From Hydrogenobaculum sp. Y04AAS1 (lineage in GTDB: Bacteria; Aquificota; Aquificia; Aquificales; Aquificaceae), in the NCBI RefSeq assembly GCF_000020785.1, contig NC_011126.1:248001-312000 (forward strand): DNA of 64,000 nt, in the 5' to 3' direction. The position numbers were made by a program, and so were the translations under genes. Of the stretch, positions 314 to 62,122 are shown in pieces. How positions within the stretch are numbered: the first letter of the stretch is position 1; every line of letters starts with the position of its first letter. The notes under the pieces were generated by a model. It did no database searches. It was not told the DNA's origin and worked only from the letters and a program-made list of their open reading frames with translations.

Positions 314-324
314 GGAGTTAAGGT

Positions 325-693: not shown

Positions 694-702
694 GAGGTTA
701 AC

Positions 703-1272: not shown

Positions 1273-1275
1273 TTT

Positions 1276-4600: not shown

Positions 4601-4601
4601 T

Positions 4602-4844: not shown

Positions 4845-4853
4845 GAGGCTTTT

Positions 4854-4967: not shown

Positions 4968-4981
4968 GTTGGAGGTTTTAT

Positions 4982-5362: not shown

Positions 5363-5374
5363 GGAGGTTTTACA

Positions 5375-20358: not shown

Positions 20359-20376
20359 ATGTTTTAGGAGGCTTTT

Positions 20377-42625: not shown

Positions 42626-43294
42626 TTACTTTATACAGTTCCAAGTACTTCCAATGAGTGTTTCCTCTTTGTAATCGTATAGCTTTTGTATTTTAAGACC
42701 AGATGTTTCTTTATCCAATATCTTTTTTGTTAGGTTTGCCATGATTTTATAGAAAGCTATAGTTCCATTTTGGTTTACCAACATACAAAACAGCTCATAC
42801 CATCTTCCGACATGATCTTTTAGGAAATCCTTATAAGCCTTATCACATATTTGCTTATTTTCCATATCATCTGTTAAAATCTTCTTTTGCAACAAAATAG
42901 ATAAAAACTCCAATTCTGTGGGTAAGCTATCTGGTTCTATTCCAGTTTGAGCTTCTGTCCCAAAAGCTTTATAAAATCCACAAATATCAGCCATTTCATA
43001 AGCTCTTCGAGAAGTTTTATCAAGCTCATAAGCCGTTTCTGATATTGGGGCTTTTAAAGCCAACAAAAACATATTCTCATAGTCATATTGCAAATCGCTT
43101 ACATTTGAACTTTTCACGACACGCTCAATCTCGATAACATCAAAATCTACATTTATCACTTTTAAACACGCTTTAAGATCATCTACAGCCTCTATTAGCG
43201 TATTTATAAGATCTTCTGTAGGATAAGTAAAAGCCCTTGAGATATAGCTCAAAACGAAAGCTTTGCTCATTTCTAATATAACATCGTTCTCCAT
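42626..43294 (-). CDS. TorD/DmsD-family molybdoenzyme assembly chaperone
   Basis: The 222-residue helical protein has the chaperone pattern FVLSYISRAFTYPTEDLINTLI and YENMFLLALKAPISETAYEL, with PTELEFLSILLQKK. Such proteins bind the Tat signal of the alpha subunit and hold it until the cofactor is inserted (NarJ, DdhD, SerD). It is the last gene of the alpha-beta-gamma operon, 1 base after gamma. It needs no cofactor itself. Confidence 0.85.
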   Translation of the reverse strand: MENDVILEMSKAFVLSYISRAFTYPTEDLINTLIEAVDDLKACLKVINVDFDVIEIERVVKSSNVSDLQYDYENMFLLALKAPISETAYELDKTSRRAYEMADICGFYKAFGTEAQTGIEPDSLPTELEFLSILLQKKILTDDMENKQICDKAYKDFLKDHVGRWYELFCMLVNQNGTIAFYKIMANLTKKILDKETSGLKIQKLYDYKEETLIGSTWNCIK

Positions 43295-43295
43295 A

Positions 43296-44147
43296 TCACT
43301 TACCCTCTATTATAAGTGGAATCCACGCATAACTTATAGCCTTCCTGGAATCTCTTTCTTTTGCATAGCCTTGCCAAACTGCAAAATCTATAAACGTTTT
43401 AGAGTTCGGTCCCCACTCTGGATTCAAAGCACCCTTTATGTTAAAAGGTCTTATTATTTCTACATACCATTTGCCATTTTTATATACACCTACACCTTTA
43501 GCCTCTTGGTGCTTTCTCCAAGTAGTTGTGGTATAACCGTCCGCTATAAATTCTATTACGCTTGTATCTCTCGTATTCTTCCAATAAGGTACTTTACCAC
43601 CAACATAATCCTGTGCATACTTGTTGTTCCAATCTTTTGGATAGGCATAAGGTGGTTTAGCCTGTGGGTAGATGTATCCAGTGTAATAGTAGGGTTCTAT
43701 TTTAGGAATATCGGCAAAGCCTTTGGTGATATTGTATTGTCTATAGGCTGCCCATTGAAGTATCACAACTTCTTTGCCGTTGCCTCCCATCGTAATAGGT
43801 GTAGTGTTATCAGGTTTTAATGGAACTTCTAAAGCTACAGCATCGGAAAACTTATCATTTACCCTAAACGTACTGGGGTGAGGATCGCTCCAGGATAGTA
43901 AGAATGCTATATATTTACTGTTATGTATGCTTTTAACTGTAATAGATTTAGTAGCTGGGTTTAGATCCATTGGAGCCACAATGGCCTGGCCAGATAGCTG
44001 AATTGTTGTAGATGGTGCTTTGTTCCATATATCTGCCATGGGATTTAAAGGTATTTCACCTTCAACGGATTTTGAAATTAGCTCTTGGCCAAAAGATAAG
44101 CTCATTGAAGTAAAAATCAATAAACTAAACAAAAGATAGCGATTCAT
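43296..44147 (-). CDS. Periplasmic heme b (EB_dh-type) gamma subunit of a type II DMSO-reductase-family enzyme
   Basis: The 283-residue protein has a Sec signal peptide (residues about 1-20, ending SFGQE) and an ethylbenzene dehydrogenase-like heme b domain with TVKSIHNSKYIAFLLSWSDP, and the later conserved GVYKNGKWYVEIIRPFNIKG. Known members (DdhC, SerC, ClrC, EbdC) hold one heme b with Met/Lys ligands and pass electrons to or from a periplasmic cytochrome c. The ATG at 44147 follows AGGAGG; a start at 44162 would overlap the beta stop without that site. Confidence 0.82.
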   Translation of the reverse strand: MNRYLLFSLLIFTSMSLSFGQELISKSVEGEIPLNPMADIWNKAPSTTIQLSGQAIVAPMDLNPATKSITVKSIHNSKYIAFLLSWSDPHPSTFRVNDKFSDAVALEVPLKPDNTTPITMGGNGKEVVILQWAAYRQYNITKGFADIPKIEPYYYTGYIYPQAKPPYAYPKDWNNKYAQDYVGGKVPYWKNTRDTSVIEFIADGYTTTTWRKHQEAKGVGVYKNGKWYVEIIRPFNIKGALNPEWGPNSKTFIDFAVWQGYAKERDSRKAISYAWIPLIIEGK

Positions 44148-44158
44148 ATTACACCTCC

Positions 44159-45307
44159 TCATGATATATCTTGCCTTGTAACACCAAGCTTTGGATCGTA
44201 AGCAGGTCTTTCTATTATTGGTTCTGTAAGAGGTACTCTTACAAGTTCCTTACCGTTTTCATCAAATGCCGATACAAATCCATCTTCTACTTTAAACTTA
44301 TGGGGTATATATTCTGTGGCACCAAACAGCAGTAGTAAAGCCTGTAGTTCTGGTTCTTTGCCTTCTCGCATTCTCTTATAAGTTTCCACAGCGTGGTCAG
44401 CACCTGGACCAAACATTTGTCTAAGGTATTTAAGCGGTACCGTAATAGGCGGGATATAATATACATTTGGTTGCATACCCGTTTGTGGATAGAGTGGTAG
44501 CGCTACCTTTTTAACGTGCACTAAAAAATCTATTGGATTATCCTCTACTATATGATCTGGTTCATTTATAAAACCCATTATCCTTACGTGTCCTATGCAT
44601 GTGGTGACACATTGAGTCATCAGTCCTTGCTCTACTTTTGGGAAACACCCTATGCATTTTTGTGAGATTCCGACTACCTGATTGAACATAGATTTTTTGT
44701 AAGGGCAGGCTCTCACGCATTCTTGATACCCTTCGCATCTTTCTGGGTCTATGAGGACTATCCCATCTTCTTGTCTTTTGTATATAGCTTTTCTTGGACA
44801 TGCTGCTAAACAAGCGGGATAAGAACAATGATTGCATATCCTAGGTAAATAAAACATCCATATAGGGCTTGGGAATTTTTCTACAATTGTACCTATGTCT
44901 ACAGGCTCCGTAGTTTCATCTTCACCGATGTTTGGGTTTGCCCAATCAAGATCTTCAGGCAACCATCCAAGCGTTCTTTCTCCGGAAGGAGCAGCCTCTA
45001 TTATCGTTTTCCCTTTATATGTCCCATTTTCCCATTCTTGTTTAACACCGGCCTTATCAAGCTCCTCCATAAGATGAACATCCCATCCCAGTGGATAAAA
45101 ACCGTGCGGTTTTGTTTCTACATTGTTCCACAGCATATATTCTTGGCCCCTCCCCACACTCCAAGTAGTTTTACAAGCCATAGTACATGTCTGGCATCCA
45201 ATACATTTGTTGATATTCATTATCATGGCAAACTGCCTTTTTGGTTTTGCTTCATCATACAGATACTCTACTTCTCTATTAAGTTGCCAATTGTAAACTT
45301 TAGGCAT
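44159..45307 (-). CDS. Four-cluster iron-sulfur beta subunit (NarH/DdhB/SerB-like)
   Basis: The 382-residue protein has the four cluster motifs CIGCQTCTMACK, CNHCSYPACLAACPRKAIY, CEGYQECVRACPYKK and CIGCFPKVEQGLMTQCVTTC. The CEGYQEC pattern, with a Tyr in place of one Cys, matches the [3Fe-4S] cluster arrangement of type II family beta subunits. It has no signal peptide, so it is probably exported with the alpha subunit. It is encoded 20 bases after alpha with a GGAGG site. Confidence 0.88.
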   Translation of the reverse strand: MPKVYNWQLNREVEYLYDEAKPKRQFAMIMNINKCIGCQTCTMACKTTWSVGRGQEYMLWNNVETKPHGFYPLGWDVHLMEELDKAGVKQEWENGTYKGKTIIEAAPSGERTLGWLPEDLDWANPNIGEDETTEPVDIGTIVEKFPSPIWMFYLPRICNHCSYPACLAACPRKAIYKRQEDGIVLIDPERCEGYQECVRACPYKKSMFNQVVGISQKCIGCFPKVEQGLMTQCVTTCIGHVRIMGFINEPDHIVEDNPIDFLVHVKKVALPLYPQTGMQPNVYYIPPITVPLKYLRQMFGPGADHAVETYKRMREGKEPELQALLLLFGATEYIPHKFKVEDGFVSAFDENGKELVRVPLTEPIIERPAYDPKLGVTRQDIS

Positions 45308-45327
45308 AGCTCAAACCTCCTTTAGAC

Positions 45328-48300
45328 TCATACAAAGATTACATAACCTGCTTCAAGATACTTCTTGAAATATTTGTTTGGATTTTGCGGTCTAAAGCCT
45401 ATGGATAAAGGTCTCCACAAACCTACATTACCTATTCCGCCGTTTTCAGCTTTTGTTATCTTTGCAAACCCCTCCCTTGGAGCCCCTGTTGGACAATAAA
45501 CATCAAGCATAAACCCTTTATTTAAGGTCTGCCCAAACAGATCTTTTCTCACCAACGTATCTCCCATCAGTGTAGGGTTTAACCATCCTCTTGTAACGCT
45601 TTGCTGAGACCCTCTTCTGTAAAAAGATTGATATCCGGTAACCGGATTTTCGGCTAAGCCGTTTTTATTTACCTTGGTTCCTTTTACACTACCATGAGAA
45701 GATCCATACATGTTAAACCAGATTTTTGCCAAGCCCGGCGGTGTGCTAAAGCTTCCTCTAACTCTTAGCAATAGTCTTGCCACCTCATATTCTTCTGGTT
45801 TATTTTGCCATCCTATAAACGGTCTATCTTGAGGATCGGCATCCACCCATACGTAATCTCCATCATTTATACCAAGTTTTTGCAAATCGTGTGTGTTTAT
45901 TTCTATAAACGCATCTACTACATAAGGAGTTCTTTTATCGTGTCTATACATATCACCGTATGGGCCAAACAGTAAAGCAACTATATCCACGTCTCCGGTA
46001 GCGGAATGTGTAGTATGCCTAAATTTAGGCGTATGAACGATGTGAGTAGCTCCAAAACTTACCCTTAAAGGATGTTTTGTATCCTTTAGCTTAGCTGGAC
46101 TTATAAATACAGCTCTTGCTTGTCTTAGCTCTGTATCCTTTAGCATCTCTTCAGAGGACAATCCGTAGCTCTTAGGATCTAACGGTCTTAAAAGAGGGTG
46201 TTTTTTGGCTATTACTATTGTATTGGGTTCATAGGGTGTTGAATCTATAGCTTCTCTATGAACTATAAGATTTTCCCCTACGTTGATAAATGTATCTTCT
46301 TCTCTATAAAATTCCAGTCTTCCGGTTTTTGTATACCAAGGCTTACCATCCACAGTCTGATCGTAGCCTATAAATTTTGGATAAAACCTTGTCATCACAA
46401 GAGACGGTATACCTTGTTCTGCTTTAGCAGCCACTTCTTCTATCTTATAACCTTTTAGGTTAGAGGAAGCATTTATAATGCGCTGGATATATACCTCTGG
46501 TTTTTCTTCAAATACAAAATGCCAGTATTCCTTAAATCTCTTATCGCCGGTAAGCTCACTGAGCCTTTTGGCAACAAGAGCATACGTTTCTATATCGTTC
46601 TTGGTATCAAACAGACGTTTTTGTTTTGTGCGAGGCCACACGAGGAAAAATGGATTTGTGCAGGATCCAGATATATCCCAAAATCTATTTTCGTCCCATG
46701 CGTCTACACCAAGGATTATATCTGAATATTCACAGGATAATGACCACCACCAATCATTTGTAACTACGCATTCTACGTTAGGTAAGACGTTAAACATTAC
46801 ATTGTATGCCCATTTTTGATTACCGAGGCCTGAGTTGTTGTCTGCCATCCACATAAACTTTGTCGGTACTGGCATGTGGGTTTTACCAGTCAGCATTTTA
46901 TCTCCAACTTTTAGAGGTCTATCACCGTCTGCAAAATAGTGCTGAGATTCCCCTTTCCAGTAAAATTTAACCTTTGCAAGCTTTGATGGGTCAAGCTCTA
47001 TATTGAATGGATCCTCGGCATTCCATTGGCCAACTCCATTAAATACCGCTAATCTATAATTACCAGCGTAAGATCCTATATTACCACTTTCTCTACCTAC
47101 ATTACCAGTAAGGGCTGCCACTAAGAATATAGCCCTTACTATAAGATCTCCGTGAAAATATTGGTTTACGCCCATGCCTGTGGTTATTTTTGTAGTGCCT
47201 TTGTGATTCGCAATCTCTAATGCCAATTCTCTTATCACATTCGCTGGAACACCTGTGATCTCTTCTACTGTTTCTGGCGTATAATTTTCTTCTAAAAGCT
47301 CAATATAAGCTTGGAAATTAGGTTTTACTTTCACCTTCTCACCATTTACAAGCTCAACTTCGTATTCACCAGTCAGAGCTGGATCTAAACTACTCATATC
47401 AAAATATTTTCCTACTTCATCCCGTGTAACTACCTTCGGAGAGTTGGTTTTTACATCCCATACCACAAAATCGTTTATATCTTGATCTCTTAATTGGATT
47501 GGGATATATTGTTTTTCCTGCTTCATCGGTGGAGGTGGCATTTGTTTAGAAGGGTTATAAACCACCGCTTGGTTTAAGGCTTTTGGTATATAGTTTGGTA
47601 TAATATCGGAGGCTCGTAAGAGTTTAGCGTTGTCCATTCTTACCAAGAGAGGTAGATCTGTAAAACTTTTGACAAAGTTTTCATCGTATAATTTTTCTTT
47701 CATTATCACATAAGCCATTGAAAGGGCTAACGCCCCATCGGTAGCTGTTCTTGTAATCACCACTTTGTCAGCCGTTCTCGCGGTAGCCATAAAATCGTTT
47801 GATATTACAATTACTTTTATACCCTTTATCTGGGCCTCTGTTAACCAATGGGAATCAGGCATTTTTGTTCCATAAGGATTCATACCCCATAGCACTATAA
47901 GTTTTGCATGTTCCCATGTAACCAAATCAAAATCCACCGTTTGTTGTCCTGTCACCAACGTATGAGCAGGAGGGAGATCTGTATGCTCTGAGTAATTATC
48001 CCATCCAACGCCTCCCAAGGCTTTATCTGGCTCAACTTTTCTTATATTTGAGTCTAACAATGCCATCATATTTGACATTCTGTACTGTCCAACATATCTC
48101 AACACTGCAAGCCAAGGCATAGAGCCTCTAAATTTAAGTGTCCTCGTGCCAGCACCAGCCATCGTATCTATCATCTCTTCTGGATAACCTTGGGCCTTTA
48201 GATAAGCTTTTCCTTTTTCGCCAGAATAGGTCTTGGCTATGTTTATTAAGCTTTTAGCAATGATATCTGATACTTCTTCCCAGGATACTTTTAGCCATTC

Positions 48301-48792
48301 ATCTTTACCACGGTTGATAAAGTATTTGGAAGGGGGTTTTCCATTTTCGTCCCTTGGAAAATCGGCTTTATACCATTCATAATATCCTTTTCTTACAAAG
48401 GGCCCTCTAATCCTTCTGTCCCCATAAAATCTTCTTACCAAGGCAAGACCTTTGTTGCAACATCTTGGCTCCCATCTATGAGAAGCTTTTATACCATATA
48501 TATCTGTTGCATCCCCATATTTATAAGTTGGTTCTAATCTCGTTATTATACCGTTTTTCACATAAGCGTTTAGATAACATCCGTGCGTATCGTTGGGATT
48601 ACAAAGAATCACTGTGGTTTCATCCGGTTTGTATATATCTCTATATATCTTTTCCCATCCTCTATTTGGATATGATGCCAATGGATTACCCACTATCACC
48701 AGAGGTTCAAAAAGCTTCTTCCCAAATCCCGGCGTAGAAAGCGCTGCCAAAAACACGCTTCCATTCTTGAGGAAATCGCGCCTTGATATCAT
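45328..48792 (-). CDS. Periplasmic type II DMSO-reductase-family molybdenum subunit (nitrate-reductase-like)
   Basis: The 1154-residue protein starts with a Tat signal (SRRDFLKNG, residues 3-11). The molybdenum ligand is expected to be D272 in SEHTDLPPAH, aligned with the NarG Asp in CDLPPASP. The N-terminal cluster motif is altered: C64, H70 and C72 in ILCNPNDTHGCYLNAYVKNG and C111/C112 later, where NarG has H-x3-C-x3-C. Nitrate is the likely substrate because it faces nirS and sits in a denitrification island, but selenate, chlorate or a dehydrogenase role is possible. I chose the ATG at 48792, which has AAGGAGGT 5 bases upstream. Confidence 0.8.
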   Translation of the reverse strand: MISRRDFLKNGSVFLAALSTPGFGKKLFEPLVIVGNPLASYPNRGWEKIYRDIYKPDETTVILCNPNDTHGCYLNAYVKNGIITRLEPTYKYGDATDIYGIKASHRWEPRCCNKGLALVRRFYGDRRIRGPFVRKGYYEWYKADFPRDENGKPPSKYFINRGKDEWLKVSWEEVSDIIAKSLINIAKTYSGEKGKAYLKAQGYPEEMIDTMAGAGTRTLKFRGSMPWLAVLRYVGQYRMSNMMALLDSNIRKVEPDKALGGVGWDNYSEHTDLPPAHTLVTGQQTVDFDLVTWEHAKLIVLWGMNPYGTKMPDSHWLTEAQIKGIKVIVISNDFMATARTADKVVITRTATDGALALSMAYVIMKEKLYDENFVKSFTDLPLLVRMDNAKLLRASDIIPNYIPKALNQAVVYNPSKQMPPPPMKQEKQYIPIQLRDQDINDFVVWDVKTNSPKVVTRDEVGKYFDMSSLDPALTGEYEVELVNGEKVKVKPNFQAYIELLEENYTPETVEEITGVPANVIRELALEIANHKGTTKITTGMGVNQYFHGDLIVRAIFLVAALTGNVGRESGNIGSYAGNYRLAVFNGVGQWNAEDPFNIELDPSKLAKVKFYWKGESQHYFADGDRPLKVGDKMLTGKTHMPVPTKFMWMADNNSGLGNQKWAYNVMFNVLPNVECVVTNDWWWSLSCEYSDIILGVDAWDENRFWDISGSCTNPFFLVWPRTKQKRLFDTKNDIETYALVAKRLSELTGDKRFKEYWHFVFEEKPEVYIQRIINASSNLKGYKIEEVAAKAEQGIPSLVMTRFYPKFIGYDQTVDGKPWYTKTGRLEFYREEDTFINVGENLIVHREAIDSTPYEPNTIVIAKKHPLLRPLDPKSYGLSSEEMLKDTELRQARAVFISPAKLKDTKHPLRVSFGATHIVHTPKFRHTTHSATGDVDIVALLFGPYGDMYRHDKRTPYVVDAFIEINTHDLQKLGINDGDYVWVDADPQDRPFIGWQNKPEEYEVARLLLRVRGSFSTPPGLAKIWFNMYGSSHGSVKGTKVNKNGLAENPVTGYQSFYRRGSQQSVTRGWLNPTLMGDTLVRKDLFGQTLNKGFMLDVYCPTGAPREGFAKITKAENGGIGNVGLWRPLSIGFRPQNPNKYFKKYLEAGYVIFV

Positions 48793-49009: not shown

Positions 49010-50656
49010 ATGGTAAAGAAGTTTCTCCTCTTAGGTACCGTTTTCGGGGCTTTCATGTTCGTTGGTAAGGAGGCTGTATCACAAGATTCGGTTCCAAATT
49101 CCGCAAAGCAGGATACACAGCCTCTTACGAAGCAAGAGTACGAGATGGCAAAACAAATCTATTTCAATAGGTGTGCCGGTTGCCACGGTGAACTTAGAAC
49201 TGGTGCAATAGGACCCGCTCTTACACCAGACAAAATGAAACAGCTTGGTATTCAAAACATAGAAACATTTATTACGTATGGGTCTCCAAAAGGCATGCCA
49301 GACTGGGGAAAATCTGGTGTTCTTACACCGGAACAAATAAGTGTAATGGCGAGGTTTTTACAGCTTCCTCCACCAAGTCCCCCAGAATTTGATCTTCCAG
49401 ATATAGAAAAAACATGGCAACTCATAGTGCCAGTAAACCAAAGACCAAAAACTCCGTTAACCAATAAAGATATATCAAATTATATGGGTGTCGTGCTCCG
49501 TTCGGCGAATGAAGCCGCTATAATTGATGATGCCACCAAAAAACCAGTAGCCATATTAAAAACCGGACATGCTTTACACATACTAAGGGCTGATGCTTCT
49601 GGAGAATACTTTTACTCTATAGGAAGAGATGGCAAGGTCAGTCTAATAGACCTTTACTATAAACACCCAAAGATAGTAGCTCAGATAAAAGCCTGCTACG
49701 ATGCCAGATCTGTAGAGGTTAGTCTTTACCATGGTAAAGAGGGTGATTATAGGGATAAATATGCTATAGTAGGATGCTATTGGCCACCTCAATTTGTCAT
49801 CCTTGATGGATCTACTTTGAAACCGCTCAAGGTTGTATCTACCGTAGGCTATCAAGTAGGTACAGGAAAGTTTATAAGGGATCCAAGGGTTGCAGCTATA
49901 GTAGCTTCTTACTTTCATCCTGAATGGATAGTAAACGTAAAAGAAACTGGCCAGATATGGATAGTGAATTATAAAGATCTCAAAAATCTCAAGATTACTA
50001 TGGTTGATGCCGCACCGTTCTTACACGATGGGGGATGGAACTCAACAAAACGATACTTCTTAGCCGCCGCCAACGCCAGCAATAAAATAGCTGTGCTTGA
50101 TGCTAAAAAAGATAAATTAGCTAAATTGATAGATACTCCAAAACTTCCTCATCCTGGTAGAGGTGCCAACATATACAATCCTAAGTACGGTCCTCTTTAT
50201 TGTTCTTCTTTTATCGGACAAGGCGTAGTAGCATGTATAGGCACCGATCCAAAGCATCACCCTCAGTATGCATGGAAAGTAGTAAAGATAATAAAACTAC
50301 CTGGAGAAGGTGGTGGTTCTTTGTTTATCAAGACGAACCCACACGTGCATTATATGTTTGTGGATAGAACTCTAAATCCAGATCAAAAACTTCAAAGACA
50401 ATTTTACGCTATAGATACAAGAACCCTTAAGGTCGTCCATACGTTCAACATGCCTAAGGATCTCAAAGGAAGATTTGTGGATTTTGATTTTAACAAACAA
50501 GGCACCGAATTGTGGGTTTCTGACTGGGATAAAGAAGGGGCTATACTGATATACAATCCAAACACATTCAAATTAGAAGATGTGATAAAAGGCAAATGGG
50601 TAATATCCCCCACAGGTAAGTTCAACGTTTATAACACCGTACACGACATCTACTAA
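49010..50656 (+). CDS. nirS: Cytochrome cd1 nitrite reductase
   Basis: The 548-residue periplasmic enzyme has a signal peptide (to about residue 25), a cytochrome c domain with C55-A-G-C58-H59, and an eight-bladed beta-propeller d1 domain (VVLRSANEAAIIDDATKKPVAILKTGHALHILRADASGEY, and later NTVHDIY at the end). It reduces nitrite to NO. The d1 heme genes follow in the same transcript, and an Fnr-type box controls it. Its electron donor is probably a soluble cytochrome c such as the one at 29569. Confidence 0.95.
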   Translation: MVKKFLLLGTVFGAFMFVGKEAVSQDSVPNSAKQDTQPLTKQEYEMAKQIYFNRCAGCHGELRTGAIGPALTPDKMKQLGIQNIETFITYGSPKGMPDWGKSGVLTPEQISVMARFLQLPPPSPPEFDLPDIEKTWQLIVPVNQRPKTPLTNKDISNYMGVVLRSANEAAIIDDATKKPVAILKTGHALHILRADASGEYFYSIGRDGKVSLIDLYYKHPKIVAQIKACYDARSVEVSLYHGKEGDYRDKYAIVGCYWPPQFVILDGSTLKPLKVVSTVGYQVGTGKFIRDPRVAAIVASYFHPEWIVNVKETGQIWIVNYKDLKNLKITMVDAAPFLHDGGWNSTKRYFLAAANASNKIAVLDAKKDKLAKLIDTPKLPHPGRGANIYNPKYGPLYCSSFIGQGVVACIGTDPKHHPQYAWKVVKIIKLPGEGGGSLFIKTNPHVHYMFVDRTLNPDQKLQRQFYAIDTRTLKVVHTFNMPKDLKGRFVDFDFNKQGTELWVSDWDKEGAILIYNPNTFKLEDVIKGKWVISPTGKFNVYNTVHDIY

Positions 50657-50657: not shown

Positions 50658-52331
50658 ATGAGAATTAGGTTAATTTTTCTTAGCTTGCTTCTTTGCTGTC
50701 CATTGCTATCCTCCTTCTCCTCTCCAGCAAGTCTGGGGGGAGATTTATACAAAGACAAGTGCGCTAAGTGTCACGGTATTAATAGAATGGGATTATCCGG
50801 GCCACCATTAATTCCTGAATTCCTAAAATCAAAATCTGACAACACACTTTTTAAGATTATAAAAAACGGTATACCTCCTACGCTTATGCCGTCCTTTAAA
50901 GATTTAACAGACAAACAAATAGAAAGTCTCATTGCTTTTGTTAAGACGCCCGTTACTGTGAACACCTGGAGTTTATCTGATATAAGGAAGACATGGTATA
51001 AGTTAAGTGCTCAAAACCCAAAGCCATGGCATAGAACAATAGTAAATTTTATGGCTTTGGTGGAAGCTGGTAAGAACAGGGTGTGGTTTCTAAATAAAGC
51101 CCATGTAATAAACAAAATAAATTTTGGAGACATCCATGGGGGGCTAAAGTTTTCTAACGATGGGAAGTTTATCTACATTCCTTCAAGGACAGGATATATA
51201 GGTAGATACAACATAAGAAAAGGATACTTGGATTATAAAGTAAGGGCATGCTTATACCAAAGAAATGTAAGCTTATTTTCCAACGGGGTAATATCAGCAT
51301 GTTGGTTACCTTCTCAAATAGTAATCCTTAACAAAAAATTAGAACCAAAAGCCGTAATTCCAATAGATGGCAAAATTAGTGCTATCTATGGGTTATACAA
51401 TTCTCCTTACGCCGTGTTTGGTTTAATGCATAAAAGTGTATTGGGTTTTCTCAACACAAGCTCTTTAAACCTAAAATACTACGATGTTCCTACTGCTTTT
51501 GAAGACTTTTTCATAGATCCGTTGGAGCATTTCGTAGTGGGAACTTCATTTAATCACAACGTACTATCAGTATTTGATATAAAATCCAAAAAAATTGTAT
51601 ATCAAACCTCCTTTGGAGGGATGCCTCATCTTGCTTCTGCAGCCTTTTGGTATAAAGATAAAAATTTTTACTTTGCCACCCCAGATTTAAAGAAACCAGT
51701 AATCACCATATGGAGAGCCTACAAATGGAAAAAGATAAAAGAGATTCCTTCAAAAGGTGTTGGATTTTTTGTTAAAACCAATCCAAACACACCTTATCTA
51801 TGGGCTGATGAACATGCAAACACGTTACTTCTAATAAAGAAGACCGATTTTAAACCCATCCATGTAAAACTAGTTAAGAAAGGTTGGATAATCCACACCC
51901 AGTTTTCGGGAGATGGTAAATATGCCTATGTAAGCGATTATGCAAAAAATGGTAACGTTTTTATACTTGATTCAACGACTCTTAAACTTATAAAATCTTT
52001 TCCAGCATCCTATCCCATTGGAAAATACAACTACGTTACGTACTCAAACAGAAGAGAAGCAGCCCTTTTAGGTGAAGAGGTGTATTTACAATATTGCTGG
52101 GGATGTCATCACCCCACTAGAACCGCCTTTGCCCCTTCTTTTAAATATATAGCAAAGCATATACCCATATCTTTAATAAAAGCTCAGATACTAAGCCCAG
52201 ATCAAACATATAAGCTGTTGGGATTTAAGCAAAATGTTATGCCAAAGTTCCACCTGTCAAAATACGAGATAGACGCCTTGCTGATGTTTATTGAATATTC
52301 TAAAAATAGAAACTTTTGGGATAGCCACTGA
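50658..52331 (+). CDS. nirN: NirN-like cytochrome d1-propeller protein with an extra C-terminal heme c domain
   Basis: The 557-residue protein starts with a signal peptide and a cytochrome c domain (C35-x2-C38-H39), then a d1-type propeller clearly related to NirS, and ends with a second c-type domain (C480-W-G-C483-H484). NirN catalyses the last step of heme d1 synthesis, oxidising dihydro-d1, and normally has one heme c. The second domain could carry the released electrons onward. It starts one base after nirS. A second nitrite reductase is less likely because NirS is already present. Confidence 0.78.
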   Translation: MRIRLIFLSLLLCCPLLSSFSSPASLGGDLYKDKCAKCHGINRMGLSGPPLIPEFLKSKSDNTLFKIIKNGIPPTLMPSFKDLTDKQIESLIAFVKTPVTVNTWSLSDIRKTWYKLSAQNPKPWHRTIVNFMALVEAGKNRVWFLNKAHVINKINFGDIHGGLKFSNDGKFIYIPSRTGYIGRYNIRKGYLDYKVRACLYQRNVSLFSNGVISACWLPSQIVILNKKLEPKAVIPIDGKISAIYGLYNSPYAVFGLMHKSVLGFLNTSSLNLKYYDVPTAFEDFFIDPLEHFVVGTSFNHNVLSVFDIKSKKIVYQTSFGGMPHLASAAFWYKDKNFYFATPDLKKPVITIWRAYKWKKIKEIPSKGVGFFVKTNPNTPYLWADEHANTLLLIKKTDFKPIHVKLVKKGWIIHTQFSGDGKYAYVSDYAKNGNVFILDSTTLKLIKSFPASYPIGKYNYVTYSNRREAALLGEEVYLQYCWGCHHPTRTAFAPSFKYIAKHIPISLIKAQILSPDQTYKLLGFKQNVMPKFHLSKYEIDALLMFIEYSKNRNFWDSH

Positions 52332-53407
52332 TGTTGCGGATTAGTGAATACATAAAGACATCCTTAGAGAAGAAGGTGAAAAAACCTTTCAGCGGCAGGA
52401 TAGTAATATGGAATATCATAAACTCGTGCAACCTGTCTTGTATATTTTGTTATTCCTCTGCCAAGAAGGCAAAACAACCATCTTATTTTGATAAAAACAA
52501 TATAAAAGATATCGTAAAAAAACTATCTGATTTAAATACAAAATTTGTAGTGCTATCTGGTGGCGAACCGCTGTTATACGATGATATATACTATGTTTCA
52601 GAGCTTTTAAGAGAACATGGTATAAACGTATCTTTGTCTACAAATGGTCTTTTGATAGATAATGACAATATAGAACTTATAAAAACACACTTTGATTATG
52701 TTGGTATAAGCATAGACGGCAAAGAAAAAACACACGATACGCTTAGAGGCTTAAATGGCGCTTATAAAAAATCAATAGGTAGCATAAAGCTCCTTTTAGA
52801 AAACAACGTAAAAGTGGGTATCAGATTTACATTAACAAACAGAAACTTTTCAGAGCTTTTACATATATTTGAACTGGCATCGTCTTTAGGCGTTAGGAAG
52901 CTATACATATCCCATTTGGTTAATAGCGGTAGAGCAAACAACGACCTTTATGTAGATAAAAAAGAACATAAGAAGATAAGTGAAGCTATTATCTTAAAAG
53001 CTATGGAAACAGACCTTGAAATAGTAACTGGAAACAATGAACAAGATGCTATAATCCTTACCGAGATATTCAAAAAACATTTCCCCAACCATATTGATTA
53101 TCTTATGGAAAATCTTAAAAATTGGGGAGGCAATCAATCTGGGGTTAGACTTCTTAATTTAGATTACAAAGGTTATATAAAGCCAGATCCGTTTTTTGAT
53201 TATAAACTTGCACATATATCTGATAACGATTTGGAAAATAAACTAAAAGAAAATCCCGTTTATAAGTTTCTCAATGCTTATCCAAGGAAGATAACAGGCA
53301 AATGTCAACAATGTCAATTTATAAACATATGCAACGGTGGGTCTAGGGCAAGAGCTTTCAATGTTTACAACGATTATTCCATGGAGGATCCGTCATGTTT
53401 TATCTGA
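52331..53407 (+). CDS. nirJ: Heme d1 biosynthesis radical SAM protein NirJ
   Basis: The 358-residue protein has the radical SAM motif CNLSCIFCY (C-x3-C-x2-C) and SGGEPLL, and a C-terminal SPASM-like auxiliary cluster region CQQCQFINICNGGSRARAF ending in PSCF. NirJ removes propionate side chains to form the d1 keto groups. The start overlaps the nirN stop as TGATG. The protein is cytoplasmic. Confidence 0.88.
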   Translation: MLRISEYIKTSLEKKVKKPFSGRIVIWNIINSCNLSCIFCYSSAKKAKQPSYFDKNNIKDIVKKLSDLNTKFVVLSGGEPLLYDDIYYVSELLREHGINVSLSTNGLLIDNDNIELIKTHFDYVGISIDGKEKTHDTLRGLNGAYKKSIGSIKLLLENNVKVGIRFTLTNRNFSELLHIFELASSLGVRKLYISHLVNSGRANNDLYVDKKEHKKISEAIILKAMETDLEIVTGNNEQDAIILTEIFKKHFPNHIDYLMENLKNWGGNQSGVRLLNLDYKGYIKPDPFFDYKLAHISDNDLENKLKENPVYKFLNAYPRKITGKCQQCQFINICNGGSRARAFNVYNDYSMEDPSCFI

Positions 53408-54474
53408 TATTTTTCGTTTCATTGCTGATTGGCTTTGTCAGTTCTTTTGGTAGCCAATATTACGTAGTAGAAAGATCAAGAGGATCTCTTGGTGTTATAG
53501 AAAACAGAGAATATGTTGGAGAGATAAAGCATCTTGGTGATATGAACCATGCCATAGTAAAATATGGAAAATGCTATGCTTACGTGATTAGTAGAGACGG
53601 AGTACTATCAAAGATAGATCCAAGAAATAATCATATTGTGGCTCAAACCAAAGCGGGCAATAGCTCTATTGATTTTTACATAACAAAGCATCTAATAGTG
53701 GTGGCAAATTACGATCCAGATACAGTAGCTATCTTCAATCACAATTTAAAGTTGATAAAATCCATAAAAACAGGCTCTAGAAATGTGGGTATCAAAGTAT
53801 ACAAACATCTTATTTTCGTGCTTTTGATGGATAAAAATGCCATTCTTGTCTTAGATGATAAAAACTTCTCAAAAAAGAAAGTCATAAAAAATGTAGGGGT
53901 TATGCCGTTTGATGCTATTTTAGACGGCGATAGATACATTGTGTCTTTTTTTGTGAACGATGATATTGGTATATTGGATACCGAAAATATGAAATACAGG
54001 ATTATACACTACGGAACAGTTTCAAAACCGATATTAAAAATACCTCATTACGGACTATTTTCCATGTGGCATGGGCTTGTATTTATGCCCCTTGTGGGAG
54101 AAAGGGCCATTGGCGTTGTAAATATAGATAAAGGGACTCTTGAGCATAAGATCCCATTGCTTGGATATCCTGTTTTTGTAATAGTCTCGCCGAAAGATAA
54201 TCTTATAGCTGTAAATTACAGCGGAGATAACGATGATTACATGAGCTTTATTGATCCTTTCAAGATGAAACTCATCAAAAATATGAAGGTTGCTAGAAGG
54301 ATAATGCATATGAGGTTCTCAAAAGATGGTAGGTTTTTGTATATATCTGACTATTTCGACAACAGGGTAAAAATCCTTGATACTTCAGATTTTAAAATAA
54401 TAAAAGAGATAACCGTACCTCAACCCTCAGGTATCTTCAGATTACCAGAAAGACTGGAGGAGTGTCATGGGTAA
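53395..54474 (+). CDS. nirF: Heme d1 biosynthesis protein NirF
   Basis: The 359-residue protein begins with a hydrophobic export signal and has a propeller fold related to the NirS d1 domain without a heme c site, ending in VPQPSGIFRLPERLEE. NirF acts in the periplasm on late d1 intermediates. It has a GGAGG site inside the nirJ end (13-base overlap) and precedes the methyltransferase gene, matching nir clusters elsewhere. Confidence 0.85.
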   Translation: MFYLIFFVSLLIGFVSSFGSQYYVVERSRGSLGVIENREYVGEIKHLGDMNHAIVKYGKCYAYVISRDGVLSKIDPRNNHIVAQTKAGNSSIDFYITKHLIVVANYDPDTVAIFNHNLKLIKSIKTGSRNVGIKVYKHLIFVLLMDKNAILVLDDKNFSKKKVIKNVGVMPFDAILDGDRYIVSFFVNDDIGILDTENMKYRIIHYGTVSKPILKIPHYGLFSMWHGLVFMPLVGERAIGVVNIDKGTLEHKIPLLGYPVFVIVSPKDNLIAVNYSGDNDDYMSFIDPFKMKLIKNMKVARRIMHMRFSKDGRFLYISDYFDNRVKILDTSDFKIIKEITVPQPSGIFRLPERLEECHG

Positions 54475-55213
54475 AGTATATTTAGTGGGTGCTGGTCCCG
54501 GTGATCCTGAGCTACTTACTCTAAAAGCAATAAAAGCCCTTGAGCGATCTGATGTTGTGTTGTATGACAAGCTTGTAAACAAAGATATACTATCTTATGC
54601 GAAAAAAGAGGCAATAAAAATATGCGTTGGAAAAGAAAGAGGATTTCATTCTATAGAACAAGATAATATAAACGATCTTATCTTGGAATACGCACATTTA
54701 GGATACGATGTAACAAGGCTTAAAAGCGGCGATCCTTTTGTATTTGGAAGAGGTGGAGAGGAGGCTTTGTTTCTTAAAAATCATGGTGTAGAGTTTGAGG
54801 TGATACCTGGAGTCACATCTGCCGTTGGTTTACCTACTCATGCGTATATCCCTATTACCTACAGAGGGATATCATCTTCCTTCGCTGTTATAACGGGACA
54901 TAAAGAAAATGGTAGTCTAAAGCATATAAATTGGGATAAGATAGTTGGCGTAGATACGCTTGTTTTTTTAATGGCTGTCTCTTCAAGACAGGAGATAGCA
55001 AAGCACCTTATAGATGCAGGAAGAGATCCGAATGAGCCAGTTGCGTTTGTAGAAAATGGTTTTAGTCAAAACGAAAAAATAATAATAACCAATTTAAAAG
55101 ACTTACTACACAACAATATAGAAGTAAATACCCCTGCTGTGATGATAGTAGGTCAGGTGGTAAACATGAGAGATAAATTAAGATCCATGGAGGTGGCTTT
55201 ATGCAAGTGTTAA
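54467..55213 (+). CDS. nirE: Uroporphyrinogen III C-methyltransferase (NirE/CobA type)
   Basis: The 248-residue SUMT protein has VYLVGAGPGDPELLTLKAIKALERSDVVLYDKLV, the LKSGDPFVFGRGGEE motif, EVIPGVTSA and PITYRG. It makes precorrin-2 from uroporphyrinogen III with two SAM. In this operon it feeds the d1 branch and could also serve siroheme. A GGAGG site lies in the nirF end. It overlaps both neighbours. Confidence 0.93.
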   Translation: MGKVYLVGAGPGDPELLTLKAIKALERSDVVLYDKLVNKDILSYAKKEAIKICVGKERGFHSIEQDNINDLILEYAHLGYDVTRLKSGDPFVFGRGGEEALFLKNHGVEFEVIPGVTSAVGLPTHAYIPITYRGISSSFAVITGHKENGSLKHINWDKIVGVDTLVFLMAVSSRQEIAKHLIDAGRDPNEPVAFVENGFSQNEKIIITNLKDLLHNNIEVNTPAVMIVGQVVNMRDKLRSMEVALCKC

Positions 55214-56214
55214 AACAAAAATTAATTGATGTAATCCAGCAAGATATACCCATACAAGAAAACCCTTTTCAGTGGATAGCCGAACAGCTTAATACGGATT
55301 TAGACAATGTTTTTGAGCTTTTAAAAGCATTAAAACAAGAAGGTATTCTAAGGCAGATAGCTCCCATATACGACACAAAATCCCTTGGATATCAGAGTGG
55401 ACTTGCGGCTGTTGCTGTAGAAGACAACGATATAGAAAAGGCGGTATATATTCTCAACGAACATCCCGGAGTAAGTCACAATTATCTTAGAAACGATACA
55501 TTTAACATATGGTTTACGATAGCTATACCTCCAGACTCACGCATAGGATTAGAGGAAACAATTAGAATACTAATTAAAGAGATTGGTACAAATATCAAAT
55601 ATGTAATATTGAACACCAAAAGAGTGTTTAAAATAAATACAAGATTTATGCAAGATGCTAAGGAAATGATGAAAAGAGAAGACTTTGTAGACCCGAAAAT
55701 ATTTAGTGGCAGATTGGATGAGATAGATAAATATATAATAAGAGAGACACAGTATGACTTACCTATTGTAGATAAGCCCTTTCACGATATAGCAAATAGG
55801 CTTGATTTAGGAGTAGATATCCTGATTGAAAAACTCTTTAAATATAAGGAACAAGGGATTATGAGGAGGTTTTCCGGGCTTATAAATCATAGGAAAGCGG
55901 GATTTAACGCAAATGGTATGTCCGTATGGATAGTGCCAGAAGACAAGATAGAGGAATACGGAAAAATAATGGCTTCTTTTAAAGGGGTTACCCACTGCTA
56001 TGAAAGAACCACCAACGAATTTTGGCGTTACAACCTATTTTGTATGATACATGGTAAGGACGAGAAAGAGGTTTACGATACGGTATACGCTATACAGCAA
56101 ACTTTGGGAGATAAAATACCGTTTAAAGTATTATTCTCTTCCAAAGAGTTTAAGAAAACAAGGTTAAGATATTTTGAGGATGATTATTATAGGTGGGAAG
56201 ATAGATATATCTAA
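55201..56214 (+). CDS. nirDL: Fused siroheme decarboxylase NirDL (AsnC/Lrp-like domains)
   Basis: The 337-residue protein is two homologous halves joined: an N-terminal winged helix (FQWIAEQLNTDLDNVFELLKALKQEGILRQIAPIYDTKSLGY) with a Lrp-like domain, and a second copy (PFHDIANRLDLGVDILIEKLFKYKEQGIMRRFSGLINHRKAGF, GVTHCYERTTNEFWRYNLFCMIHG). In other bacteria nirD and nirL or nirG and nirH encode these halves; together they decarboxylate siroheme. The fused form alone presumably does the whole step, as no separate nirG/nirH is present. Confidence 0.9.
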   Translation: MQVLKQKLIDVIQQDIPIQENPFQWIAEQLNTDLDNVFELLKALKQEGILRQIAPIYDTKSLGYQSGLAAVAVEDNDIEKAVYILNEHPGVSHNYLRNDTFNIWFTIAIPPDSRIGLEETIRILIKEIGTNIKYVILNTKRVFKINTRFMQDAKEMMKREDFVDPKIFSGRLDEIDKYIIRETQYDLPIVDKPFHDIANRLDLGVDILIEKLFKYKEQGIMRRFSGLINHRKAGFNANGMSVWIVPEDKIEEYGKIMASFKGVTHCYERTTNEFWRYNLFCMIHGKDEKEVYDTVYAIQQTLGDKIPFKVLFSSKEFKKTRLRYFEDDYYRWEDRYI

Positions 56215-56864: not shown

Positions 56865-57149
56865 ATGAAAGAAAGAGTAGAAGTACCAAATACCACAGTG
56901 CCGGTTTACAAATACGAAGAGAGTGAATATACGGTGTATGAATTTGATACATCCATGAAGGGTCCACCAGAACCAATGGTGAATGCGCTCTCAGTTTTAG
57001 AGCTTTTGAACTCATCAAATGTAAAAGTTGTTATGATAAATCACAGAAAACCTATGGGATTGTTTGATAGGTTAGAAGATAAATACAACGTTAGCATGGA
57101 AGAGCTACCCGACGGAAAATATAAAATAGTTTTTACATTAAAAGCATGA
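56865..57149 (+). CDS. DUF2249 domain protein
   Basis: The 94-residue protein has the DUF2249 pattern (STMKGPPEPMVNALSVL-type region, then VVMINHRKPMGLFDRLEDKYNVSMEELPDGKYKIVFTL). These small proteins occur repeatedly in denitrification and nitrosative-stress operons, often with DUF59 and hemerythrin-like genes, but their biochemistry is unknown. It overlaps the following membrane-protein gene by 4 bases (ATGA). Confidence 0.82.
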   Translation: MKERVEVPNTTVPVYKYEESEYTVYEFDTSMKGPPEPMVNALSVLELLNSSNVKVVMINHRKPMGLFDRLEDKYNVSMEELPDGKYKIVFTLKA

Positions 57150-58369
57150 ACCAAAGTGCTTTTTTAGCTAAAAACCTATCTACCCCTTTTAGCATAGTAT
57201 TAAGATATTTCTTGAGTGCTTTTTTATTCTATGCTACATTTTTCGTTCTTATATTTCAGTTTTTCGAGTCTTTGAAAGGATATTTCTTGTCTTTTCAAAT
57301 AGCCTTTTTGGCTCATATATTTTTTCTTGGATTTGTGCTAAATACCATTTTTGGGGCAATGTTTCAGCTTTTACCTGTAGCTTTAGAAAGTCCTATATTT
57401 TCTGTGCTTCTGGCCAAATTACAATTTTACATATATGAGTCCGGTATAATACTTATGCTATACGGGTTTTATAACGTTAATTTGGATATTCTGGCGCTGG
57501 GAGCCTTATTTACGTTCATTAGCATAGCAATTTACTTGTTTAACTTTTTTGCGAGTATTATAGGTTCTTCTCTTAACAAAATAGAAGTGAAATTTTTAAC
57601 AGTTTCTCATACACTACTTGGTGCTGGCGCTGCCATTGGCTTAGTAATGACGCTTAACATGAGGTTTAATTTTTTATCTATAGATTATGTAGATTACGCT
57701 TTTATGCATATAACATTTATGATTTTTGGATTTATTTTTATGAGCATAATGGGATTAAGCAAAGTTCTATTGCCCATGTTTTCACTGGCTCACAAATACA
57801 GCGATAGACCCTTAAAGGCTGCTTTCTATACTATGTTATTTGGTATCATTAGTTTTGCAATGTCTGTAAAATTACTATGGATAAAAGAGGTATTTTTTGG
57901 TATTGTGTTGACTGGAATAGGCATTTACCTAATTCAAGTTTTAGAAATATATAGACATAAGCCAAAAAAGAGGGCTGATATTTACATAAACGGTATGTTT
58001 TATTCACATATATTCATTATACTAGGGGTACCGATGTTGCTATATTCTCCTCTATTCTTTGGAATACTAATGTTTATAGGATTTTTGCAAATGTTTATAT
58101 TATCAAACCTATACAAAATAGTGCCGTTTTTAGTATGGTTTCATAGGTTTTCTCGTCTCGTGGGTAAAAAGAAAGTTCCTATGCTATCGGATATGCTTAA
58201 GAAACCATTGTCCATGTTAAATTATACTTTTTCCTCAACTGGAGTGATTTTGATTACTATTTCTTTAATCTTTAACATCGGAGCTTTGTATATAGTAGCT
58301 TGTGGTTTTCTACTTGCAGGAGCAGCTTCTTTTTTGACTAACATCTTGTATGTATTGACTTTAAAATAG
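57146..58369 (+). CDS. Polytopic membrane protein with conserved histidines (NnrS/heme-copper oxidase-like)
   Basis: The 407-residue protein has about twelve hydrophobic helices. Its HIFFLGFVLNTIFGAMFQLLPV and HITFMIFGFIFMSIMGLSKVLLPMF segments place histidines in helices, as in NnrS and related oxidase-like proteins that bind heme or copper. Proteins of this kind help cells tolerate NO. It is translationally coupled to DUF2249 and followed by DUF59 and norB, so a role in NO metabolism is likely; I cannot give the family with certainty. Confidence 0.65.
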   Translation: MNQSAFLAKNLSTPFSIVLRYFLSAFLFYATFFVLIFQFFESLKGYFLSFQIAFLAHIFFLGFVLNTIFGAMFQLLPVALESPIFSVLLAKLQFYIYESGIILMLYGFYNVNLDILALGALFTFISIAIYLFNFFASIIGSSLNKIEVKFLTVSHTLLGAGAAIGLVMTLNMRFNFLSIDYVDYAFMHITFMIFGFIFMSIMGLSKVLLPMFSLAHKYSDRPLKAAFYTMLFGIISFAMSVKLLWIKEVFFGIVLTGIGIYLIQVLEIYRHKPKKRADIYINGMFYSHIFIILGVPMLLYSPLFFGILMFIGFLQMFILSNLYKIVPFLVWFHRFSRLVGKKKVPMLSDMLKKPLSMLNYTFSSTGVILITISLIFNIGALYIVACGFLLAGAASFLTNILYVLTLK

Positions 58370-58674: not shown

Positions 58675-59334
58675 TTAAAAGTTATAAATAACATCTTTAA
58701 GCTTAGCAATATCCTTTACCACAATGCGATGTTTTTCATCTACATGTATTGCTCCATTTTGTTTAAACTTTGAGATGATTCTGGATAACGTTTCTGGAGC
58801 TATATTTAGTAAAGAAGCTATTTGTGAATGTTTTAGCGATGTAAAAATCTCCGGAGATTCCATTATTATCTTTGCCACTCTTTCCTCTGCGCTCATTACC
58901 ATATTTGTAGTTATGAATAAATCTAAAGTTCTTATCTTCATCAACAAGGATTTTATTATAGATAACAATATTTCAGGAGATGTCATAAATTCTCTTTTAA
59001 AGGCTTCAAAATCTATTTGCAATACCTGACCTTCTGTTATGAATTCAGCAGTAGCTGGATATGATATATTTTCAAAGTTTGCCATTTCACCAATGATGCT
59101 TACTGGTTTAAACTGCGTTATTACGACTTCTGTGCCTTTGTTTGTAAGCTTATACACTTTCACTAAGCCATCTAGCAATATATATATGTTTTCAGGCTTG
59201 TCTCCCTCGTGAAATACGATCTCGCCCTTCTTGAAATTTCTTATATTTGATATGCTTTTTAGTTTTTTAAGATTTTCGTCGCTTACTTTACTAAATAAGT
59301 AAACATTTCTTAGCAAATCTATATCAACATTCAT
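58675..59334 (-). CDS. Crp/Fnr-family regulator of the denitrification island (DNR/NnrR-like)
   Basis: The 219-residue protein has a cyclic-nucleotide-binding-like domain (FKKGEIVFHEGDKPENIYILLDGLVKVYKL, GEMANFENISYPATAEF) and a winged helix with the recognition helix APETLSRIISKFKQNG. The E-x2-S-R motif there matches recognition of TTGAT half sites. It has no cysteine at all, so it is not an oxygen-sensing Fnr with an iron-sulfur cluster; NO sensing by heme, as in DNR, is likely. TATAAT (59342-59347, minus strand) ends 7 bases before the ATG, so its own mRNA may be leaderless. Confidence 0.85.
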   Translation of the reverse strand: MNVDIDLLRNVYLFSKVSDENLKKLKSISNIRNFKKGEIVFHEGDKPENIYILLDGLVKVYKLTNKGTEVVITQFKPVSIIGEMANFENISYPATAEFITEGQVLQIDFEAFKREFMTSPEILLSIIKSLLMKIRTLDLFITTNMVMSAEERVAKIIMESPEIFTSLKHSQIASLLNIAPETLSRIISKFKQNGAIHVDEKHRIVVKDIAKLKDVIYNF

Positions 59335-59875: not shown

Positions 59876-62122
59876 ATGGCTACAAGCTTGGAAGATGTAG
59901 AATTAAAGGAGCGTAAAAGATGGTGGCTCCTTGTATGGGGAACTGCTATAACGGTGGTTCTTATTTTTCTGGCTTTTACCGTCTACCAGATAAAATCAGT
60001 TCCCCCAATACCGCAACAAGTTCAAGTTCAAGGCACAAACAACACCCTTTACACAAAGGATGATCTAATAAAGGGTAAGGACTATTTTCAAGAATTTGTT
60101 CTCATGGACAATGGTACGATACTTGGGAATGGTGCCTACACGGGGCCAGATTATACGGCATGGATGCTTCATCTTCTTGTGCAGTCTTTAGAGAATATAT
60201 ACGCTAATGAGAAGTATCATGCTCCTTACGCGGCTCTTCTAAAAGAGCAAAAGGTTGATGTGGATTATTTAGTAAAACGCGATCTAAGAGAAATGTCTAC
60301 ACTAAAATCTCCGGTTACCACCGTAACACCAGAATACGCTAAAGCTTTTGAACAAGCTAAAGATACCATAGTAAACTTTATTGTAAATGGCAATCCGCGT
60401 TATGCATGGTTGGGTCACGTCGTCCCCAAGGATAAGGCTGAAAAAATAGTAGATTTTGTGAATTGGACAACGTTGTCTGCCACTACCGATAGACCAGACA
60501 GCAATATCACTTATACAAACAACTGGCCACCAGAACCAAAAATAGGATTAGGTTTGACATTTGACGATATATGGACTTCTTTGATAGCATTCATGGGAAC
60601 ATGGGTTGCGTCTATCGTTGTAATATTTCTTTTCTACGAATATTTTGAAAAGCTTGAAAACGCTGCCAAACCAGTAGCAGCTTTAGACATAGCCCCACTT
60701 ACAAATATGCAAAAAAAAGTTTTAAAGTATGTGCCTATAGTACCTGTTTTTTTCTTTTTACAATGTGTGTTTGGCGGTTATCTTGCACACTTATACGCCG
60801 ATCCTACACACAGCTGGTTGATACCGCAAAGCTTACTTCCTTTCAACGTAGCAAGACAGTTTCACATAAACTTAGCTGTGCTGTGGATAGCAATAGGATG
60901 GCTTACCGGAGGATTGTTTATAGCTCCGTTGGCTTCCGGTAGAAAAGACTTTAAACTCCCAATTCTCGTAGATATTTTATGGTTAGCTCTCGTTGTTGTA
61001 GGAGTGGGAGGTCTAATAGGCATATATCTTGGCACAGAAGGATATTTACAGAACGATAAGCTATGGTTCTGGCTTGGCTCTCAAGGCCGTGAATATTTGG
61101 AACTCGGTAGGATATGGGCTACTGGCGTATTGATAGGTCTCGTGATATGGTTTGTCATAGTACTTTTTACCATAAGACAAGCCAAAAAAATCACCCCATC
61201 TTTGAATGTGATGATGTGGTCTGCTTTTGCCATCGCTGGACTCTATATAGCAGCTTTACTACCATTTACCCACACTATACATAACTATACGATAGATGAC
61301 TATTTTAGATGGTGGGTAGTGCATCTTTGGGTGGAAAACACATTTGAGTTGTTTGCCGCTGGGACATTGGCTTTTATAACTGTAGAGCTCGGCCTTGTAA
61401 ATCAAAGATTTGCCAATGCAGTTATGTTCTTTGAAATGTTTCTAATAATAGGTGCCGGTACTATAGGCACTGGACATCATTACTATTGGATGGGAGAAGA
61501 TAACTTCTGGATTATGTGGGGAAGTATACTATCTTCACTTGAACCAGTGCCTTTGGTGATGTTAATGGTGGAAGCTTACAGAGAGTATCATCACATACAA
61601 AACAAAGACAAGTTTCATTTTAACATGACATTTTACTGGCTTGGTATGTCTGCCTTTTTAAACTGGTTTGGTGCAGGTTTTTATGGTATGTTTATTAACG
61701 AGCCTGCAGTTAATTACTTTACACACGGTACATATTTTGTAATGGCACACTCTCACGTTGCCCTTCTTGGAGCATTTGGCTATATAGCTATAGCATTTAT
61801 ATATTTTATCCTTGAATATAGAGCAGCTGCCGAAGGATTCGTATGGGATATGAAACTCTCAAAATTGGCATTTTGGCTTATTACCATAGGTATATGCCTA
61901 TACACTATACCAACAATGGTAGTAGGATTTCATCAATTCAAAGAGTCCTTTGACGTAGGATACTGGTATGCACGTACCAGAAGCGTATTGGAGCCCGTTC
62001 ATTTCTGGATGTGGATAAGGATACTTCCAGATTCCATGGTGTTAGGCGGAGCCTTTTTGCTGATGGTTGACATCCTGTACAAACTATTCATGCCTATAAA
62101 AAAGATAGAAAAAGCAGCTTAG
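59876..62122 (+). CDS. norB: Quinol-dependent nitric oxide reductase (qNor)
   Basis: The 748-residue protein has an N-terminal helix and a periplasmic cytochrome-c-like extension without a heme motif (about residues 45-225), which defines the quinol type. The 12-helix core carries the metal-site histidines in VVHLWVENTFELFAAG, GTGHHYYWMG and THGTYFVMAHSHVALLGAFG. It reduces NO to N2O with quinol electrons. The usual HLWVEG Gly is Asn here. An AAGGAGG site precedes the ATG and a terminator follows. Confidence 0.95.
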   Translation: MATSLEDVELKERKRWWLLVWGTAITVVLIFLAFTVYQIKSVPPIPQQVQVQGTNNTLYTKDDLIKGKDYFQEFVLMDNGTILGNGAYTGPDYTAWMLHLLVQSLENIYANEKYHAPYAALLKEQKVDVDYLVKRDLREMSTLKSPVTTVTPEYAKAFEQAKDTIVNFIVNGNPRYAWLGHVVPKDKAEKIVDFVNWTTLSATTDRPDSNITYTNNWPPEPKIGLGLTFDDIWTSLIAFMGTWVASIVVIFLFYEYFEKLENAAKPVAALDIAPLTNMQKKVLKYVPIVPVFFFLQCVFGGYLAHLYADPTHSWLIPQSLLPFNVARQFHINLAVLWIAIGWLTGGLFIAPLASGRKDFKLPILVDILWLALVVVGVGGLIGIYLGTEGYLQNDKLWFWLGSQGREYLELGRIWATGVLIGLVIWFVIVLFTIRQAKKITPSLNVMMWSAFAIAGLYIAALLPFTHTIHNYTIDDYFRWWVVHLWVENTFELFAAGTLAFITVELGLVNQRFANAVMFFEMFLIIGAGTIGTGHHYYWMGEDNFWIMWGSILSSLEPVPLVMLMVEAYREYHHIQNKDKFHFNMTFYWLGMSAFLNWFGAGFYGMFINEPAVNYFTHGTYFVMAHSHVALLGAFGYIAIAFIYFILEYRAAAEGFVWDMKLSKLAFWLITIGICLYTIPTMVVGFHQFKESFDVGYWYARTRSVLEPVHFWMWIRILPDSMVLGGAFLLMVDILYKLFMPIKKIEKAA

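Follow-up and report, generated by a model that had tools for sequence, protein, structure and literature searches.

The window analysed here, a stretch of 64,000 nucleotides of the Hydrogenobaculum sp. Y04AAS1 genome (contig NC_011126.1, positions 248,001 to 312,000), contains an operon for a putative periplasmic molybdoenzyme of the type II dimethyl sulfoxide (DMSO) reductase family. Its four genes are contiguous on the minus strand in the order alpha-beta-gamma-chaperone and divergent from nirS (Table 1), and in both respects a preliminary description of the region was correct. Among proteins of solved structure, alpha matches NXR-A of the nitrite oxidoreductase (NXR) of Kuenenia stuttgartiensis over its full length with 823 bits and 40% identity, followed by PcrA (217 bits) and NarG (138 bits); beta matches Kuenenia NXR-B (7b04_A) with 380 bits and PcrB, the next relative, with 222 bits. 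Alpha reaches 319 bits with TIGR03479, the model of the Clr/Ser/Ddh/Pcr/Ebd subfamily, which lies below the curated cut-off of 985, and the chaperone scores under the cut-off of TIGR03482.

Table 1. Features of the molybdoenzyme operon and its surroundings, in coordinates of the window.
Feature	Position	Strand	Remarks
Alpha-beta-gamma-chaperone operon	42626-48792	-	
Alpha, catalytic subunit (molybdenum bis-molybdopterin guanine dinucleotide, Mo-bisMGD)	45328-48792	-	1154 aa; Pfam Molybdopterin; full-length best match Kuenenia NXR-A 7b04_B
Beta, iron-sulfur electron-transfer subunit	44159-45307	-	382 aa; TIGR03478; 4Fe-4S protein
Gamma, periplasmic heme-b subunit	43296-44162	-	PF09459 EB_dh / DMSO_red_II_gam
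TorD/NarJ-type assembly chaperone	42626-43294	-	PF02613, 47.6 bits vs cut-off 22.2
FNR-type palindrome TTGATTTAAATCAA	48851-48864	.	alpha-nirS divergent intergenic region; exact match
Second FNR-type palindrome TTGATTTGTATCAA	48940-48953	.	alpha-nirS divergent intergenic region; exact match
FNR-type palindrome, exact match	start 56794		before 57146
FNR-type palindrome, exact match	start 59404		between regulator and norB
FNR-type palindrome, exact match	start 62174		before 62187
FNR-type palindromes, exact matches	starts 22927 and 22945		before 22982
nirS, cytochrome cd1 nitrite reductase	49010-50656	+	PF02239 382 bits + cytochrome c domain
Heme d1 gene block	50658-56214	+	
cd1-like NirN/NirF-type proteins	50658-52331 and 53395-54474	+	
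NirJ-type radical SAM protein	52331-53407	+	
NirE-type tetrapyrrole methylase	54467-55213	+	
Siroheme decarboxylase (ahbAB)	55201-56214	+	
Polytopic membrane protein	57146-58369		407 aa; FNR-type box upstream
Crp/Fnr-family regulator	58675-59334	-	PF00027 + PF13545; no cysteine in sequence
NorB-type nitric oxide reductase	59876-62122	+	PF00115 + PF22085 NorB cytochrome-c-like domain
PhsA/PsrA-like molybdoenzyme	17542-21048		with ferredoxin-type subunit

The N-terminus of alpha, MISRRDFLKNG, contains a twin-arginine motif (SRRDFL). No signal peptide was seen in beta; gamma has a single N-terminal hydrophobic, signal-like stretch and no second strong candidate for a membrane helix. The designation of gamma as the heme b subunit is borne out by matches to the EB_dh/DMSO_red_II_gam profiles. 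Its predicted heme ligands, M125 and K274, align to M155 and K305 of Kuenenia NXR-C, and in the aligned sequences the methionine occurs in 71 of 71 and the lysine in 69 of 69 (2 gapped). The preliminary description had noted the lack of a NarI-like membrane subunit, and this holds genome-wide, as a search with PF02665 of the genome, a single contig of 1,559,514 bases, gave 0 hits.

The proximal cluster site (FS0) of alpha consists of C64-x3-D68-x3-C72-x39-C112, three cysteines and one aspartate, each of which aligns with its counterpart in the solved Kuenenia NXR-A (C67/D71/C75/C115), the spacing being identical. N67 aligns to the active-site Asn70, H70 to H73, and D272, within HTDLPPAH, to the Mo-ligating Asp275, in agreement with the earlier assignment of the Asp ligand region. 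By contrast, the cluster motif had been misread as C64-x7-C72 with H70, so that the ligand D68 was missed, and C111 and C112 had been taken together, whereas only C112 is a ligand. In Kuenenia NXR the proximal [4Fe-4S] cluster is held by three cysteines and Asp71, and H73 is absent from the published ligands (PMC8387239). The same paper states that an Asp at this position had been noted earlier and that the lineages of NXR and nitrate reductase (NAR) carry either 3Cys/1Asp or 3Cys/1His (PMC8387239). Of the 106 aligned members of the clade of the window alpha, 100 span the site, and every one of these has C/D/C/C; H/C/C/C is the pattern in E. coli NarG, ClrA and two further outgroup rows. A false lead is thereby removed: the motif that had been described as altered is the 3Cys/1Asp site usual in the periplasmic NXR/NAR branch. 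WP_012513384.1, a protein of Hydrogenobaculum sp. Y04AAS1, is very probably the window alpha, an identification we assume from the agreement in percent identity to Kuenenia. It has been aligned, with the FS0 ligands marked and about 40% identity to Kuenenia, in Extended Data Fig. 1 of the structure paper (PMC8387239). An AlphaFold model of alpha built with 26 sequences (mean predicted local distance difference test, pLDDT, 73.8) has Kuenenia NXR-A as its first match in fold comparison; residues 62-73 and 78-124 have pLDDT values below 50, and of the structure prediction proposed earlier for the cluster site the fold is informative and the site itself is not. Five alphas of the NXR clade (L141, L142, L144, L145, L146), from genomes of the class containing L076, carry Cys in place of Kuenenia Asp71 and have an all-cysteine FS0 (C/C/C/C).

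The position of alpha among its relatives was determined in a maximum-likelihood tree of 40 alpha subunits, with support given as pairs such as 100/100 and with ClrA and type II enzymes of Hydrogenothermaceae as stand-ins for full SerA, DdhA, PcrA and EbdA sequences. The window alpha groups with that of L033, an Aquificaceae metagenome-assembled genome (MAG), with 100/100, and both group with the other Aquificaceae, including L015, which we take to be Hydrogenobacter thermophilus TK-6, and two further MAGs, again with 100/100. This Aquificaceae-centred group nests with 100/100 in a clade of 27 rows that spans Acidobacteriota, Planctomycetota, Nitrospirota, NC10, Myxococcota, Parabeggiatoa and a haloarchaeal plasmid. 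The sister of the 27-row clade, at 100/100, is an NXR clade of 8 rows (Kuenenia and seven others) that does not include the window protein. NarG, ClrA and the Hydrogenothermaceae enzymes fall outside both clades, which answers for NarG and ClrA the phylogenetic question raised in the preliminary description and leaves SerA, PcrA, DdhA and EbdA to their stand-ins. Identity to the window alpha is 84% for L033, 66% for L015, 40% for Kuenenia, 27% for ClrA and 26% for NarG. A clade sister to the classical NXRs that includes the H. thermophilus enzyme and Nitrotoga NXR has been published (PMC6050957); the position of Nitrotoga NxrA relative to the window alpha rests on that paper. By its sequence, the window alpha belongs to this sister group of the anammox/Nitrospira-type NXR, which is large and has been described before. 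The clade, the Asp ligand and, very probably, this protein have all been published, and the observation is already explained.

Two genomes among the relatives are unusual in themselves. One Nitrospirota MAG (G139; L041/L119 and L114) has both an alpha of the NXR clade and one of the Aquificaceae-centred group, through either horizontal transfer or a binning error. In L017, an Aquificaceae locus (G038), alpha reads as two open reading frames of 166 and 945 aa, possibly owing to a frameshift or an assembly break.

Gamma before chaperone had been regarded as an unusual order. Among the relatives, alpha-beta-gamma-chaperone is in fact the commonest complete order, with 47 loci compared to 7 with alpha-beta-chaperone-gamma; the order cannot be read in many loci because they are too short, and a few loci were retrieved twice, by different tools. 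In L043, from the NC10 bacterium CSP1-5, a second set (positions 3-5642; an incomplete alpha, only part of which is in view, with beta, chaperone and gamma) sits directly ahead of a complete alpha-beta-gamma-chaperone set.

Positions that differ between NXR and NAR are listed in a 2025 review (PMC12300631). At these positions the window alpha has T309, M540 and K923, and T/M/K is common to nearly its whole clade in the alignment; the NXR rows have N/E/K and NarG has T/A/H. On account of this signature, the conserved heme ligands of gamma, the lack of NarI and the neighbouring nirS, heme d1, regulator and NorB genes, we regard the enzyme as serving a denitrification island as its nitrate reductase. 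The secreted molybdoenzyme is most probably, as far as its sequence and surroundings allow a judgement, the periplasmic nitrate reductase of an island made up of nar, nirS, heme d1 genes and norB. The H. thermophilus enzyme is described in a passage of PMC6050957, with reference to Kameya et al. 2017, as a characterised periplasmic nitrate reductase. The tree, the twin-arginine motif, the lack of NarI and the nirS context support the earlier view of a type II periplasmic nitrate-reductase-like enzyme that differs from NarG.

With regard to substrate, direction, electron donor and regulation, we infer the following sequence of events. The chaperone would load the Mo cofactor and fold alpha, which would be exported by the twin-arginine translocation (Tat) system with beta hitch-hiking, while gamma would be exported separately. 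Electrons would enter at the Met/Lys-ligated, high-potential heme b of gamma, probably from a c-type cytochrome, and pass through the FeS chain of beta to the 3Cys/1Asp FS0 of alpha and on to Mo, where nitrate would be reduced to nitrite. The neighbouring NirS would consume the nitrite and NorB the resulting NO, and the nearby Crp/Fnr-type regulator probably induces the genes.

The window alpha is one of three PF00384 proteins of the genome and the only NarG/Nap-type candidate seen among them. Another, at 865015, has a weak Pfam match and no match to the window alpha at E 0.001; the third is the PhsA-like enzyme of the window, by its sequence a likely sulfur or polysulfide reductase. A search of the genome with TIGR04246 for NosZ found nothing at E 0.001, and the pathway may therefore end at N2O. 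No NarK-type match exceeded the curated cut-off; this fits a periplasmic enzyme, though as weak evidence. The polytopic membrane protein of the island has no Pfam or NCBIfam match (nearest COX1 at E 0.41) and is possibly a denitrification accessory protein. Among 64 Aquificaceae genomes, 19 encode the periplasmic nitrate reductase, 26 nirS and 15 both (odds ratio 11.6, Fisher p 7e-5, uncorrected for relatedness). Of the genomes of the genus, two (G000, G031) carry the pair and three carry neither.

Seven exact copies of the palindrome TTGAYNNNNRTCAA are present in the window compared to 0.42 expected, and none of 100 shuffles reached seven. The pattern is the known Fnr-type consensus, but it was chosen alongside inspection of the nar-nirS intergenic region, and the exact-match count followed a one-mismatch scan that gave 16 matches vs 12 expected. 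Five palindromes are intergenic in the denitrification island, two of them between alpha and nirS; the remaining two precede a chemotaxis receptor. L033 has a similar box ahead of its alpha gene and another about 115 bases upstream of nirS; in the remaining Aquificaceae loci the region before alpha gave no FNR-type box. The seven palindromes suggest a single Crp/Fnr regulon. The cysteine-free Crp/Fnr protein is DNR/NnrR-like rather than FNR-like and probably the regulator of the island, and we infer that it may act at these palindromes.

Several points weigh against a function as nitrate reductase. A passage of PMC4668684 attributes to Reysenbach et al. a failure to detect nitrate reduction in strain Y04AAS1; under the conditions used there the enzyme could have been silent, or it could act in another way. 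Nitrotoga, whose NXR belongs to the published clade, oxidises nitrite (PMC6050957), so that the direction of the reaction cannot be read from phylogeny. Moreover, the low confidence of the AlphaFold model around the cluster prevents a test of that site. Together with an NXR, that of Kuenenia, as the nearest solved structure, the first two points favour an enzyme that is mainly a nitrite oxidase or bidirectional, for example in the detoxification of nitrite with O2 via cytochrome c. Known NXRs work in both directions. Nevertheless, such an activity is unlikely, as the window alpha lies outside the NXR clade with 100/100, T309/M540 replace the N/E of NXR (Asn312/Glu527 in Kuenenia numbering), and nirS and norB, to which the operon is linked, form a reductive pathway in which nitrite is consumed. 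That the Hydrogenobaculum enzyme is bidirectional or a nitrite oxidase under physiological conditions has, in our estimate, a slightly smaller chance still. If it were, an acidophilic hydrogen oxidiser could draw electrons from nitrite or render it harmless, and the reported lack of nitrate reduction would fit.

Reduction of another oxyanion such as selenate, chlorate or perchlorate, as by SerA, ClrA and PcrA, would agree with membership in the same superfamily and with the similar heme-b gamma and chaperone, but it is very improbable given the 27% identity to ClrA and its clear separation in the tree, an FS0 of C/D/C/C rather than H/C/C/C, a gene order unlike clrABDC, in which the chaperone precedes gamma, and linkage to nirS where clr is linked to chlorite dismutase. 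There is hardly any room for the new nitrate reductase lineage with a novel cluster site suggested in the preliminary description. FS0 does differ from that of E. coli NarG, but 3Cys/1Asp is the site of a solved structure (PMC8387239) and of every clade member spanning it, and both the clade, with the reportedly characterised H. thermophilus member, and the sequence of this species are in print (PMC6050957, PMC8387239).

A nitrate reductase of the island thus remains the preferred interpretation, and it can be set beside known systems. The periplasmic enzyme of H. thermophilus (L015), also of the Aquificaceae, shares the Tat motif, FS0 and Mo ligands and the 100/100 clade at 66% identity in alpha; there, nirS is not beside nar and no exact FNR-type box lies upstream of alpha. 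Kuenenia NXR-ABC (PDB 7b04, PMC8387239) is homologous in alpha and beta over the full length and in gamma, with the same FS0 ligands and spacing, Mo Asp, active-site Asn and Met/Lys heme-b ligands, yet it belongs to a separate clade at 40% identity and has N312/E527 in place of T309/M540; its linkage to denitrification genes further sets the window enzyme apart. E. coli NarGHI, of the same type II family, has homologous alpha and beta subunits and the Asp Mo ligand but differs in its His/3Cys FS0, its cytoplasm-facing active site and the NarI membrane subunit (26% identity). ClrABDC, PcrAB and EbdABC are likewise periplasmic type II enzymes, with a heme-b gamma in Clr and Ebd, but form a separate clade, and ClrA has a His/3Cys FS0. 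The Aquificaceae enzymes, with T/M, placed beside the anammox and Nitrospira nitrite oxidases, with N/E, offer a reasonable comparison for what sets the direction between nitrate and nitrite.

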